Shown here: piece after piece, positions 14,206 through 51,857 of the stretch | Layout of the letters: the number at the start of each line of letters is the position of its first letter | Numbering within the stretch: the first letter of the stretch is position 1 | Assembly: GCF_001426925.1 (NCBI RefSeq) | Contig: NZ_LMFR01000024.1 | Coordinates: forward strand, 223,431-287,430 | Direction of reading: 5' to 3' | Origin: Microbacterium sp. Root53 | GTDB taxonomy: Bacteria; Actinomycetota; Actinomycetes; Actinomycetales; Microbacteriaceae | Length of the DNA stretch: 64,000 nucleotides | Translations under genes and position numbers: made by a program | The notes under the pieces: generated by a model | The model's input: the letters and a program-made list of their open reading frames with translations, nothing else | The model's database searches: none | Told to the model about the DNA's origin: nothing

Positions 14206-14339
14206 GTCGTCGGACCGCCGGGCCGCTCGTCGGATCCGCGGGGCTGGTGTCGCCTCGTGAGCCTCAGGCGTGCACATCCGCCCCACCAACCCGACGAACG
14301 GACCATGCGATCCGACGACTGGGTGGCCCATCCGACGAC
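14206..14339. repeat. 20-bp-phased palindromic element, copy 1 (solo)
   Basis: Left arm: GTCGTCGGA at 14206 and CTCGTCGGA at 14226. Right arm: TCCGACGAC at 14311 and 14331. Each pair is spaced exactly 20 bases start to start. The central spacer is 76 bases here, against 54-55 in the other three copies, and contains GGGGCTGGTG, also found in the copy at 37616. It lies between convergent genes. Confidence 0.8.
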
Positions 14340-21839: not shown

Positions 21840-22649
21840 GTGAGCCAGGCGATCCCGACCCCCTATGAGGACCTGCTGCGCGACGTGCTCGAGCACGGCA
21901 CGCACAAGGACGACCGGACGGGCACGGGGACGACCAGCGTGTTCGGCCGCCAGCTGCGCTGCGATCTCTCGCAGAGCTTCCCCCTGATCACCACCAAGCG
22001 CGTGCACTTCAAGTCGGTCGCGCTGGAGCTGCTGTGGTTCCTGCGCGGCGACTCCAACGTGCGGTGGCTGCAGGAGCGCGGCGTCACGATCTGGGACGAA
22101 TGGGCCGACGCCGAGGGCGAACTCGGGCCCGTGTACGGCGTGCAGTGGCGGTCCTGGCCGACGCCGAGCGGCGAGCAGATCGACCAGATCCAGCAGGCGG
22201 TCGACCAGATCCGGACGAACCCCGACTCGCGGCGCATCCTGGTGTCGGCGTGGAACCCGGCGGACATCCCCGACATGGCGCTCGCGCCGTGCCATGCGAT
22301 GTTCCAGTTCTACGTCGCCGACGGGAAGCTGTCGTGCCAGCTCTACCAGCGCAGCGCCGACATGTTCCTCGGCGTGCCGTTCAACATCGCGTCGTACGCG
22401 CTCCTGACGCTCATGATGGCGCAGCAGACCGGTCTCGAGCCCGGCGAGTTCGTGTGGACCGGCGGCGACTGCCACATCTACGACAACCACCGCGAGCAGG
22501 TCGCCGAGCAGCTCTCGCGCGAGCCCTACCCGTACCCGACGCTCGAGATCACGCGGAAGCCCGCGTCGATCTTCGAGTACGAGTTCGAGGACTTCGCGCT
22601 GCACGACTACCAGCACCACCCGCCGATCCGCGGCGCGGTCGCGGTCTGA
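21840..22649 (+). CDS. thyA: Thymidylate synthase
   Basis: 269-residue folate-dependent thymidylate synthase converting dUMP to dTMP with methylene-THF. The catalytic Cys151 lies in [12 protein letters not shown], the dUMP-binding segment is [23 protein letters not shown], and it ends with the conserved [11 protein letters not shown]. The GTG at 21840 gives the normal N-terminus ([23 protein letters not shown]); upstream in-frame sequence overlaps the neighbouring divergent gene's signal region and is not homologous. It is followed without gap (TGATG) by folA, which regenerates THF from its product DHF. Confidence 0.97.
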
Positions 22650-23152
22650 TGCCGATCCGGGCGGTCTGGGCACAGGCGTCCACGGGCGCGATCGGCGCCC
22701 AGGGCGGCATGCCGTGGGATCTGCCGGAGGACCTGGCGTTCTTCAAGCGCGCCACGAGCGGATGCCCCGTGCTGATGGGCCGCCGCACCTGGCAGTCCTT
22801 CCCCGAGCGCTTCCGCCCGCTGCCGGATCGCCCCAACATCGTCATCACGCGCGACGAGGGCTTCGAGGCCCCCGGCGCCCAGGTCGTCCACTCGCTCGAC
22901 GACGCCCTGGAGGAGGCCGCCAAGCTCGACGACGAGGTGTGGGTCATCGGGGGAGCGGAGATCTACCGCCAGGCCATGCCGCTGCTCGACGAGCTCTGGG
23001 TCACGCGCATCGACCTCGACGTCGAGGGCGACGCCTACGCGCCCGAGATCGACGACTCGTGGCACCTCGTCCGCTCCGACCCGGCAGACGGCGGCTGGCA
23101 CACCAGCCGCACCGGCACCCGCTATCGCTTCGAGGTCCTCCGCCGCTCCTGA
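22649..23152 (+). CDS. folA: Dihydrofolate reductase
   Basis: 167-residue DHFR. The N-terminal AVWAQASTGAIGAQGGMPWDLPEDL segment includes the substrate-site Asp, followed by the NADPH motif MGRRTWQSFP and VWVIGGAEIYRQAMP. It starts at an ATG sharing one base with the thyA stop codon (TGATG), so the two are translated together and act in one cycle. The length is typical of trimethoprim-sensitive chromosomal enzymes. No terminator is seen; the gene runs into the palindromic element at 23165. Confidence 0.96.
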   Translation: MPIRAVWAQASTGAIGAQGGMPWDLPEDLAFFKRATSGCPVLMGRRTWQSFPERFRPLPDRPNIVITRDEGFEAPGAQVVHSLDDALEEAAKLDDEVWVIGGAEIYRQAMPLLDELWVTRIDLDVEGDAYAPEIDDSWHLVRSDPADGGWHTSRTGTRYRFEVLRRS

Positions 23153-23164
23153 CCCCCGCGTGCG

Positions 23165-23276
23165 GTCGTCGGGGCCGCCGCGCAGTCGTCGGATGAGTGG
23201 TGCGGCTGATGCGGATGAGGTCGCTGACGTCACTCAAGCATCACTGCTCCGACGACCGAGCAGCGCATCCGACGAG
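23165..23276. repeat. 20-bp-phased palindromic element, copy 2 (upstream of the AbiEi/nuclease-like gene)
   Basis: Left arm: GTCGTCGGG at 23165 and GTCGTCGGA at 23185. Right arm: TCCGACGAC at 23248 and TCCGACGAG at 23268. The spacing within each pair is 20 bases and the spacer is 54 bases. The spacer part CACTCAAGCATCAC matches CACTCCCGCATCAC in the copy at 37616. Confidence 0.8.
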
Positions 23277-23392
23277 TGGGCTGGGGCGACCGGATCGCCA
23301 TGGCTCGCTCACAACCACCCGACTCGTGCGGACCCTCCCCAAACGGACGCCGGAGCCGCCTGCGGCCACGGGCGAGGCGCCACCGTCGGGGC

Positions 23393-24265
23393 ATGTTCAT
23401 CGACGAGATCGCGGCCAGGATGGCGCGGACGGACGGAGTCGCCAGAGCCGCGGACCTGCTGGCGGCGGGTGCCCGTCGCTCGGACCTGCGGCGGTGCTGT
23501 GCGGCAGGTCAGCTCCACCGCCTCCGCGAAGGCGTGTACGCACTGCCGACCGCCCTCGAGGATGTCCGCACGGCCGCCGTGCACGGCGGGGCGCTCGCCT
23601 GCGTCTCCGCCCTTCGTCGGCACGGCGTCTGGGTCCTCGACGCCGATGGCGTGCACGTGTGGCTCGGCGGCAAGGGGCGGCGGCACGCCCACCCGCAGTG
23701 CGCGTGCGTCGGGCATTGGGACGCCGGCGCGGCGCGGCCCGGGGTGGTCTCCGTCGCGCGCGCCCTCGTGCAGCTCGCCGGATGCCAGGGCGCCGAGGCA
23801 TTCTTCGTCGCCTACGAGTCCGCTTGGCGCCTGGGCAAGCTGACCGGGCGGGCTCGTGCCTGGATCCGCGATCATCTGGACGCGGGGATGCGGTACCTCG
23901 TGGACATCGCTCGGCCGGATGCCGACAGCGGTCTCGAATCGCTCGTGCGGCTGCGGCTCGGTCGGCTCGGAATCTCCTTGCGGGCGCAGGTGCCGATCGA
24001 AGGCGTCGGAACCGTCGACTTCATCCTGGACGGACGGATCATCCTGGAGGTCGACGGCCGCGAGAACCACGATGGCGAGTCGAAGCGGCACAGGGATCTC
24101 GGTCGCGACGCCCGCGCACTGGCGCTCGGGTACATCCCGCTCCGATTCGACTACGCGCAGGTGCTGTACGAGTGGTCGATCGTCGAGGCGGCGATCCTGG
24201 GCGCACGCGAGACGCTCGGTCGTCGGAGCCTCCGCCCAGTCGTCGGAGCGACGCGACGCGTGTGA
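23393..24265 (+). CDS. AbiEi-like winged-helix protein with DUF559/PD-(D/E)XK nuclease-like domain
   Basis: 290 residues. Residues ~14-50 form a winged-helix segment like AbiEi antitoxin N-termini (ADLLAAGARRSDLRRCCAAG...LREGVYALP). Residues ~180-265 resemble the DUF559/Vsr-like fold: Glu182, then VDFILDGRIILEVDGREN with Asp209, Glu219 and Asp221 as candidate metal ligands. This architecture is common in actinobacteria as orphan genes. No toxin (AbiEii) partner lies on either side, so a toxin-antitoxin role is not supported. The gene is boxed by two inverted copies of the palindromic element; the downstream copy overlaps the last ~16 codons. The ATG at 23393 starts the conserved part; a 39-residue Arg-rich upstream extension was rejected. 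No ribosome-binding site is obvious. Confidence 0.75.
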   Translation: MFIDEIAARMARTDGVARAADLLAAGARRSDLRRCCAAGQLHRLREGVYALPTALEDVRTAAVHGGALACVSALRRHGVWVLDADGVHVWLGGKGRRHAHPQCACVGHWDAGAARPGVVSVARALVQLAGCQGAEAFFVAYESAWRLGKLTGRARAWIRDHLDAGMRYLVDIARPDADSGLESLVRLRLGRLGISLRAQVPIEGVGTVDFILDGRIILEVDGRENHDGESKRHRDLGRDARALALGYIPLRFDYAQVLYEWSIVEAAILGARETLGRRSLRPVVGATRRV

Positions 24266-24330
24266 TTCCTGGCGCCTGGTCCGTCACGAGCGCCCCACAA
24301 CTCCGACGACTGCGCGCGTGATCCGACGAC
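24219..24330. repeat. 20-bp-phased palindromic element, copy 3 (3' end of the AbiEi/nuclease-like gene)
   Basis: Left arm: GTCGTCGGA at 24219 and 24239, inside the coding sequence. Right arm: TCCGACGAC at 24302 and 24322. Both spacings are 20 bases and the spacer is 54 bases. Its spacer aligns better with the reverse complement of copy 2 than with copy 2 itself, so the gene lies between inverted copies. Confidence 0.8.
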
Positions 24331-24392
24331 TGCGCGCACCGCGCGCACCCGCGCGGCAACCCGCGCGCGTGAGTCACCCAGCCCGCGCGCGA

Positions 24393-24398
24393 TAGCCT
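24393..24398 (+). promoter_or_regulatory. -10 hexamer of dapA, leaderless start
   Basis: TAGCCT ends six bases before the dapA ATG. The intervening GGAGCC is too close to act as a normal ribosome-binding site. Confidence 0.45.
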
Positions 24399-24404
24399 GG
24401 AGCC

Positions 24405-25382
24405 ATGACGCACTCGGGCAACCCCTTCGGACAGGTGCTCGTCGCGCTCGTCACTCCGATGACGGCCGACGGCGAGGTCGACTGGCCCGCCGTCGAGAAG
24501 CACATCGACGACGTGATCGTGTCGGGCGCCGACGGGATCGTCGTCACCGGCACGACGGGCGAGACCTCGACGCTCACGGACCCCGAGAAGATCCGCCTCG
24601 TGGAGGTCGGCAAGGACGTCGCCGCGGGCCGCGCCAAGATCATCACGGGCGGCGGCTCGAACGAGACCGCGCACGCGATCGAGCTCTACCAGAAGAGCGA
24701 GAAGGCCGGCGCCGACGGCATCATGATCGTCACGCCGTACTACAACAAGCCCACCCAGGCGGGCATCCTGACGCACTTCCGGCTGGTCGCGGATGCGACG
24801 GATCTGCCGGTCATCCTGTACGACATCCCGGGCCGCACCGGCGTGCCGATCAAGTACGAGACCATGCTGCGCCTCGCGAAGCACCCGAACATCCTCGCGG
24901 TGAAGGACGCCAAGGGCGACTTCAGCGAGGTCAGCCGCGTGCTCAACCAGACCGACCTGATGTACTTCTCGGGCGACGACGCCAACGTGCTGCCGCACCT
25001 CGCGATCGGCGCCACGGGCCTGATCGGCGTGACGGCCAACATCGCCGCCGCGCCGTACCGCGTGATCGTCGACGCGGTGAACCGCGGCGACCTGGCCGCG
25101 GCCACCGAGCAGCACAAGAAGCTCGAGCCGCTCGTCCGCGCCGTTATGACGCACGTCCCGGGCACGGTCTCGACGAAGTACATCCTGCACGGCCTCGGCC
25201 GCATCTCCAGCCCGCGCGTGCGCCTGCCGCTCGTGGGCCCGGAGGAGTGGGAGGCCGCCATCATCGAGGACGAGCTCGCCCTCGTGAAGGACGTCGACGG
25301 CGTCGACTTCTCCAACTTCCGCCCCGACCGCAACGCGGCCGCCGGCGGCGCCCTGCCCAAGGTGCCGGGCACCACGCGCTGA
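24405..25382 (+). CDS. dapA: 4-hydroxy-tetrahydrodipicolinate synthase
   Basis: 325-residue Schiff-base aldolase condensing pyruvate with aspartate semialdehyde, the first committed step to diaminopimelate and lysine. The TIM barrel has the VTGTTGETSTLT pyruvate-binding loop, the YNKPTQAG segment with the catalytic Tyr, VILYDIPGRTG, and the Schiff-base lysine in ILAVKDAKGD (about residue 167). It is ~25 residues longer than E. coli DapA at the C-terminus, as usual in actinobacteria, with a poorly conserved Ala/Gly tail. rnj follows after 118 bases, an arrangement common in actinobacteria. Confidence 0.97.
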   Translation: MTHSGNPFGQVLVALVTPMTADGEVDWPAVEKHIDDVIVSGADGIVVTGTTGETSTLTDPEKIRLVEVGKDVAAGRAKIITGGGSNETAHAIELYQKSEKAGADGIMIVTPYYNKPTQAGILTHFRLVADATDLPVILYDIPGRTGVPIKYETMLRLAKHPNILAVKDAKGDFSEVSRVLNQTDLMYFSGDDANVLPHLAIGATGLIGVTANIAAAPYRVIVDAVNRGDLAAATEQHKKLEPLVRAVMTHVPGTVSTKYILHGLGRISSPRVRLPLVGPEEWEAAIIEDELALVKDVDGVDFSNFRPDRNAAAGGALPKVPGTTR

Positions 25383-37615: not shown

Positions 37616-37728
37616 GTCGTCGGATCGGCCGCTCGGTTGCCGGATCGGAGGGGCTGGTGCCCACTCGAGCGCGCGCATCAGCCACTCCCGCATCACGGAT
37701 CCGACGACTGAGCATCGGACTCGACGGC
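37616..37728. repeat. 20-bp-phased palindromic element, copy 4 (solo)
   Basis: Left arm: GTCGTCGGA at 37616 and GTTGCCGGA at 37636. Right arm: TCCGACGAC at 37700 and the degenerate CTCGACGGC at 37720. Spacing is 20 bases in both arms and the spacer is 55 bases. It lies between the GNAT remnant and dapF. Confidence 0.75.
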
Positions 37729-51641: not shown

Positions 51642-51687
51642 CAGAAGCGGTCGCACGCTCGCGCTGGCGCTGGCGCGCCGGACACTC

Positions 51688-51857
51688 GCGAGCGAGGAAC
51701 GTCGCTTCGCTCCGTTCGGCAGCGCTTCGCGCTGCGTTTGGCCGCTTCGCGGCACGCTCGCTGGGCCCCCGGCGCAGAGGCTCCGGCCGTCGCGAATGCG
51801 ACGGTCGGAGAAGCGCACGGGGACGCTCGCACGACCGTCGATGACCCGGGGTTGCTG
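51688..51857. repeat. Dispersed intergenic repeat, copy 2
   Basis: 51688-51736 is identical to 15-63 and 51829-51857 matches 90-118 with two changes. The middle differs and contains GGCTCCGGCCGTCGCGAATGCGACGGTCGGAG, a hairpin (CCGTCGC/GCGACGG). This occupies most of the 433-base gene-free stretch 51593-52025; the rest is the rplT terminator and, from about 51860, unremarkable GC-rich sequence. Confidence 0.75.

Follow-up and report, generated by a model that had tools for sequence, protein, structure and literature searches.

Nuclease genes flanked by lineage-specific symmetrical elements in Microbacterium: a possible REPIN/RAYT-like system with an unrelated enzyme

In the soil bacteria of the genus Microbacterium, most genes that encode AbiEi-EDxHD/Vsr-type proteins sit between two short symmetrical elements whose arm is specific to the gene lineage. 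Further copies of the cognate element stand alone at other, mostly intergenic, places in the genome that carries the gene. On balance, we favour reading this arrangement as a two-part REPIN/RAYT-like system with an unrelated enzyme, in which the enzyme would bind, cut or spread its elements. The origin and persistence of bacterial short palindromic repeats are tied mainly to HUH RAYTs, and for some repeat families no enzyme is known. The pattern described here looks as if the elements were maintained or spread by this enzyme, a role ascribed elsewhere to a quite different enzyme family. If this reading is true, the genus contains another, unrelated class of enzyme with numerous naturally diversified enzyme/element pairs, and the REP lifestyle has evolved more than once.

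The starting point was a stretch of 64,000 nucleotides from Microbacterium sp. Root53, hereafter the window (Table 1). An earlier note, made from the sequence alone, had described an orphan gene with a winged helix and a DUF559-type nuclease part. An open reading frame of 290 codons with an ATG start indeed lies at that place. At E <= 1, the Pfam matches of its product are restricted to DUF559 (E=6e-6, over the family cut-off), AbiEi_4 (E=8e-5, 23.1 bits, slightly below the cut-off of 25) and REase_MTES_1575. NCBIfam profiles gave no match to the protein, and the AbiEi models of PADLOC cover its N-terminus (best E=3.9e-9). The absence of a toxin partner is likewise borne out, as no toxin gene (AbiEii/DUF1814) adjoins the gene and its direct neighbours encode DHFR and DHDPS.

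Table 1. Features of the window, with positions counted from its first letter
Feature	Position	Strand	Description
dfrA (Pfam DHFR_1), left neighbour of cassette	22649..23152	+	dihydrofolate reductase gene, context
Upstream box	23165..23276	.	palindromic element made of two 9-bp units repeating every 20 bp, in inverted arrangement around its centre
Boxed nuclease gene, 290 aa	23393..24265	+	AbiEi-like winged helix/middle domain 1-174; Vsr/EDxHD/DUF559-type nuclease 176-277
Downstream box	24219..24330	.	same palindromic element as the upstream box; overlaps the last codons of the boxed gene
dapA (Pfam DHDPS), right neighbour	24405..25382	+	dihydrodipicolinate synthase gene, context
Solo element	14206..14339	.	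between convergent His_Phos_1 and methyltransferase genes; additional right-hand unit
Solo element	37616..37728	.	upstream of dapF

An AlphaFold2 model of the protein, built from 85 sequences, is confident (pLDDT 94.9, pTM 0.90), and AbiEi and Vsr/EDxHD folds together account for its length. Among the structure matches listed for this model, residues 1-174 align with the S. agalactiae AbiEi antitoxin 6y8q (Z 7.9, 161 residues). Residues 176-277 resemble the EDxHD homing endonuclease I-Bth0305I (3r3p; Z 9.3, 96 residues, rmsd 2.5), the endonuclease-like protein 3hrl (Z 9.4, also found by sequence profile with E=0.0024) and Vsr (1vsr; Z 7.4). The predicted structure agrees with the Vsr/PD-(D/E)XK-type enzyme fold that had been proposed, and the nuclease part is modelled as an EDxHD/Vsr-type fold with conserved acidic residues and a histidine. 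Nine nuclease-type residues (E182, D209, E219, D221, H226, R232, D235, R238 and D239) are invariant in all 85 aligned sequences, the window's included, as are H108 and C131. This alignment leaves out homologues with an in-frame stop (L049, L083, L090 and L109).

The two boxes and the two solo elements of the window share the pattern GTCGTCGGA-N11-GTCGTCGGA...inverted. At no more than three mismatches, the window contains 8 half-sites versus 0.65 expected, a number reached in 0 of 100 shuffles. The count over the whole genome (2.91 Mb, 26 contigs), which the earlier note had proposed, returned 12 half-sites at no more than two mismatches and none in the control. In total, the genome holds the two boxes, about five solo elements (14206 and 37616 in the window, C1:309977, C12 near 11.7 kb and C24 near 197.5 kb) and one chance-like hit (C12:388010); its elements measure 112-134 bp. 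Of the note's description of two inverted copies around the gene, the copies stand, but their inverted orientation is barely defined because each element is itself symmetrical (match score 23.5 direct, 19.5 inverted). The downstream box begins at 24219 within the gene and therefore encodes its last codons, as had been stated. Both solo copies exist as well, although the copy at 14206 is longer than described (134 bp), with an extra unit in its right arm.

The gene family is present in 95 of 99 Microbacterium genomes, the window's own counted, and 74 of the 80 homologue loci with names bear the name Microbacterium. Among the named loci fetched, the nearest homologue belongs to M. marinilacus (79% identical), which has kept both boxes at the same locus with an arm of the same kind. 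Five orthologues adjoining dapA have boxes whose arms differ from the window's or agree with them in part. Beyond these dapA-adjoining orthologues, flanks were sampled from 60 close members, 20 distant ones and 80 named loci. Boxing was scored by a four-way arm test, which seeks one 11-mer and its reverse complement on either side of the gene and sums the mismatches as T. This test was used in place of Smith-Waterman flank matching, which was inflated by conserved neighbours and missed short-armed pairs. The arm tests were run without L101 (cut by a contig end), L108 (a run of N), loci with short flanks and duplicate proteins.

Of the 153 distinct homologues, 113 lie within a matched element pair at T<=4 and 69 still do so at T<=2. 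The corresponding values are 4.0% and 0.1% for cross-pairs below 50% protein identity, and 1/60 and 0/60 for control flanks (30 dapA and 30 dapF genes). The earlier note had named the lack of flanking copies in most relatives as evidence against its hypothesis, and this did not hold. At T<=4, 40 of the 153 homologue loci fail the test. When 19 loci failing the first test were re-inspected by eye, most proved to be boxed by weaker pairs. Among distant members of the genus (<=37% identity), 10 of 20 carry matched pairs at T<=4 versus 4.4% of cross-pairs. In other genera of the family Microbacteriaceae, two of 11 homologues are clearly boxed (L210, L211) and the rest weakly or not.

A matching downstream element is absent in six inspected homologues (L031, L032, L037, L038, L039 and L060). 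The upstream palindrome is strong and of GGGGGCCGACAC type in L031, L037, L038 and L039, and has another sequence in L032; the downstream partner is missing in all five, which perhaps form a lineage that has lost its downstream box. At L421 (G048), the boxes (about 1275-1419 and 2400-2472) contain up to six tandem TTCGGGAGG-like units at 18-bp spacing, and box size therefore appears able to grow by unit duplication.

Sharing of arms follows protein identity. At T<=2, arms are shared in 0.2% of 4238 locus pairs below 45% protein identity, in 6.6% at 60-65%, in 41% of 80 pairs at 70-80% and in 59% of 27 pairs above 80%. Over all pairs, arm sharing and identity correlate weakly by rank (Mantel rho 0.099, reached in 0/999 permutations). 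These sequence comparisons show gene lineages with arm sequences of their own, arm and protein diverging together. That species other than the window's carry other arm sequences is a REPIN/RAYT-like signature. Columns 94-95, 76-77, 46 and 30 of the window protein were among the best at tracking a shared arm and are candidate DNA-reading positions; this choice is exploratory, because the pairs are not independent.

Scattered copies were sought with six arm patterns, own included, in 99 genomes. Half-sites inside boxes were left out of the Fisher tables. Cognate genomes and box matches were assigned by hand; the boxed arm of G005 lies one base off the pattern, and those of G058 and G073 are close variants. 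The own double motif GTCGTCGGA, taken exactly, occurs more than once in just one of the 99 genomes scanned, the window's; seven other genomes have a single half-site each, and the reversed control gave one hit (G057). Counting this motif over the genus as a refutation was dropped, since the flanks of orthologues carry other arm sequences.

Two other arms give the clearest association. The pattern GCACAACGGCGG-N8-14-CGACACGCCG occurs as 112 half-sites in 11 of 99 genomes (reversed control 0), and all seven genomes with at least two half-sites off boxes have a gene boxed by the arm or a close variant (p=8e-9). Three more carriers have fewer half-sites, and G063 and G098 hold one half-site each without a cognate. 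For AACTGCAAGGG-N8-14-CGACACGCCG, the 42 half-sites fall in 4 of 99 genomes (control 0), namely G081, G046 and G037, as predicted beforehand, and G080, whose gene is boxed by the arm too. All four genomes with at least two half-sites off boxes carry a gene boxed by it (p=2.7e-7). The doubled TGCACGACC motif yields 11 half-sites in 4 of 99 genomes (control 0; p=0.0018). Its cognate gene is present in three of the four, of which G034 has the motif only as boxes; the fourth, G087, contains a single half-site and no cognate. Exact half-sites outside boxes are absent from G034, G093 and G006, in which a boxed gene is present.

The GCACAACTTCGGA arm behaves more loosely. Its 83 hits (control 0; p=0.0009) are spread over 14 of the 99 genomes, with the highest numbers in the two predicted genomes, G029 (46) and G078 (10). 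Among the seven genomes with at least two hits off boxes, however, four (G001, G071, G096 and G077) have no intact cognate among their listed homologues. Inspection of all listed homologues found no cognate in G001, G096 and G077, and G071 retains a decayed homologue near a one-mismatch GCACAACTTCGGA half-site. The expectation of an arm restricted to G029, G078 and possibly also G083 and G014 failed, given its occurrence in 14 genomes and its absence from G083. Fragmented homologues, apparently decaying genes, were seen at G071:C1:753818-754505 and G018:C6:560529-561343.

Solo elements of TTCGGGAGG type lie upstream of dapA in G018 and G048, and elsewhere in G004, G014 and G064. Genes boxed by this arm type were found in G048 and G004 (the latter gene with one in-frame stop), and one homologue in G064 has a one-sided upstream element of the type. 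No cognate was found in G018 among all listed homologues, or in G014 among the four of six homologues inspected. The TTCGGGAGG scan pattern matched 4 of 99 genomes and misses the solo copies of G018 and G048. The idea that element-rich genomes always carry an orthologue, taken as a gene boxed by the arm, holds for two arms (7/7 and 4/4) and not for GCACAACTTCGGA, with 3/7. A copy number independent of the gene, the outcome that would have spoken against the earlier note, was not found, as these two arms multiply off the gene only where a gene boxed by the arm was found. Together with the boxed homologues, this link lends support to the REPIN/RAYT-like pattern suggested at the outset.

The elements have a consistent anatomy. 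In searches open to about 57-105 bp, elements of the first (GCACAACGGCGG) arm measure 81-84 bp in 29/29 cases, those of the GCACAACTTCGGA arm 81-83 bp in 14/15 and those of the AACTGCAAGGG arm 76-77 bp in 20/20. Single genomes, searched in windows of 80-86, 80-85 and 74-79 bp, agree: 26 elements of G097 measure 82-84 bp, 19 of G029 82-83 bp, 16 of G081 76-77 bp and 14 of G037 76 bp. Each side has two conserved blocks, the outer arm and, some 20 bp closer to the centre, an inner arm; the spacers vary. Spacer complementarity compared with shuffled partners is 0.28 vs 0.33, 0.43 vs 0.43 and 0.30 vs 0.43 in three arm families. For these families, a near-fixed length with non-complementary spacers suggests double-stranded binding sites and not maintained hairpins.

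Genomic placement was assessed for 80 half-site loci with a home-made, approximate codon-bias gene finder. These loci include some from genomes without a cognate, and several represent the two halves of one element. They comprise 39 convergent, 25 tandem and 6 divergent positions, 5 inside a predicted gene and 5 undetermined; control gaps of at least 80 bp were convergent in 63, tandem in 115 and divergent in 30 of 208 cases. As few half-sites lie between divergent genes (6/80), most are not shared promoter operators.

Several observations suggest mobility. Among the 30 best-matching dapA loci, judged by eye, four have an intact gene, two a broken one, two a solo element of another arm and 22 neither. 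Upstream of dapA, L173 (G035) and L195 (G044) are broken remains of the same gene at the orthologous place. The comparison of empty and filled sites that the earlier note had proposed could be made at the dfrA-dapA site, which is cassette-free in G089: thyA, dfrA and dapA are contiguous there, with a 48-bp gap that contains no element either. Upstream of dapF, no element was seen by eye in the 29 relatives displayed, some of which show isolated near-matches to the unit. Two G081 elements separated by 6.4 kb are 0.93 alike in the core and 0.51 in the flanks. Such empty sites and a scattered near-copy would fit elements that move. Tandem arrays occur with a period of 152-168 bp. Scattered copies within a genome mostly have unlike spacers (median core identity 0.58-0.64), and recent copying is therefore rare, or the copies are old.

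A working mechanism can be outlined from known relatives. AbiEi and Rv2827c bind inverted repeats, which AbiEi antitoxins do in their own promoters (reported in part of PMC7319586), and I-Bth0305I dimerises on a target near 60 bp (reported in part of PMC3943268). The simplest model therefore places two or four protein copies on a symmetrical element about 80 bp long. In this symmetrical dimer or tetramer, the AbiEi-like part would bind the arms, whose two blocks on each side are separated by about 20 bp, or two helical turns. The bound protein would set two nuclease domains over the unconserved element centre. A controlled nick or cut at the centre, followed by host repair, could then lead to the element being copied, converted or tandemly amplified. 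Free double-strand breaking is not expected where intact cognate sites lie beside an intact nuclease gene; with both coexisting, the enzyme must nick, act conditionally or target a special DNA form. The gene would serve in trans a small population of non-autonomous elements and probably control its own expression through the upstream box as well, as AbiEi antitoxins do through inverted repeats.

The fuller proposal, to which we give about an even chance, is that AbiEi-EDxHD/Vsr nucleases form a second, independently evolved REP-type enzyme class. They would be sequence-specific, kept in place by descent, and would maintain and spread fixed-length, four-block symmetrical elements as double-stranded DNA. 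Re-matching of enzyme and arm would have produced dozens of mutually orthogonal pairs in one genus.

Other readings account for parts of these data. The elements could be host-useful sites, kept by selection for regulation, chromosome organisation or insulation of convergent genes and bound by a protein without mobility, whose nuclease fold would serve another purpose or be structural. Conserved arms, free spacers and near-fixed geometry do resemble selected binding sites, and the repeat binding of AbiEi antitoxins (PMC7319586, in part) points the same way. We nevertheless consider this rather unlikely in view of the scarcity of divergent loci, the lack of an obvious regulatory reason for a downstream box, the lineage-specific sites (dapF, dapA) and the invariant nuclease residues. 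If the elements were hairpin terminators or other RNA structures and the gene a bystander, the good RNA folding of the own-genome elements (z -1.8 to -5.6 in 7 copies, with centres paired in some) and the many elements between convergent genes would find an explanation. Yet in the three other arm families the self-complementarity of spacers and centres does not exceed that of shuffled partners, Rfam models have no match in 22500-25000, matched pairs are lacking around control genes, and ordinary terminators are not expected to match the arm of one particular gene. We give this explanation hardly any credence.

There are two further interpretations. In a homing-type cassette, the element would be the target, the box-gene-box arrangement a gene inserted by break repair and the solo copies unoccupied targets. 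A homing endonuclease, I-Bth0305I, is among the closest nuclease folds and dimerises on a long target (PMC3943268, in part), and the dfrA-dapA site has been found empty. Homing should, however, fill the elements elsewhere, whereas the homologues fetched show one gene per arm alongside up to tens of half-sites, and the element is missing from the empty site of G089; this makes homing quite improbable. A derivative of a defence or toxin-antitoxin system would combine antitoxin-like and nuclease parts in one polypeptide, restrained by chromosomal self sites. The fit of the PADLOC AbiEi models and the intact nuclease residues agree with such an origin, but the window gene has no adjoining partner toxin and we know of no defence gene with such boxes, and we regard this origin as very unlikely.

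The REPIN/RAYT-like reading that we prefer rests on shared organisation. In both systems, a gene is bordered by palindromes that are also scattered, extragenic and tandemly clustered, and enzyme and repeat diverge together (described in parts of PMC3116915 and PMC8266576). The REPIN/RAYT (REPtron, TnpA-REP) enzyme is a HUH tyrosine transposase related to IS200/IS605 TnpA, whereas an AbiEi/EDxHD-Vsr-type protein is found here. The Microbacterium system is not a REPIN/RAYT member, because its enzyme is unrelated and the defining HUH tyrosine transposase is missing. It also differs in its low copy numbers and in the lack of a GTAG tag at the element ends inspected. Classical REPs are hairpins; in three arm families studied here, the element consists of four blocks that keep a fixed distance and whose spacers do not pair, while the inverted arms of the own-genome copies fold well.

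Relations to the known families that the two parts resemble are similarly partial. The N-terminal half resembles the AbiEi antitoxin of type IV toxin-antitoxin systems, but the window gene has no adjoining toxin, carries a fused nuclease domain and has cognate repeats that flank it and recur at other sites of the genome. With I-Bth0305I and Vsr it shares the nuclease fold, which makes a long symmetrical target plausible; the AbiEi-type DNA-binding half and the many unoccupied elements alongside one gene set it apart. CGTC REPs, which part of PMC3733652 describes as sequences that "apparently lack a dedicated transposase", are likewise repeated palindromes whose enzyme is not known. They are tagged short stem-loops of other bacteria, and the relation is one of resemblance only. 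AbiEi/DUF559 genes with cognate repeats are undescribed among the open full-text matches listed, a scope that leaves most subscription journals outside, and "DUF559" and "AbiEi" never occur together in one paper of the open full-text literature.

The system would offer a testable role for a large group of AbiEi-like and DUF559-domain genes without known function. Its matched and mismatched enzyme/element pairs within one genus would form a ready series for the study of DNA recognition, and possibly a set of long-site nucleases.

Two further repeats were noted in the window. A 39-bp repeat, CCCGGTCGTTGAGCGGAGCG...GTCGAAACGGGC, occurs at 122-160 and 247-285, is distinct from the boxes and is 97% identical between the neighbouring copies. 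A 60-bp repeat at 4-63 and 51677-51736 is 93% identical over a distance of 51.7 kb and possibly represents another interspersed repeat family.
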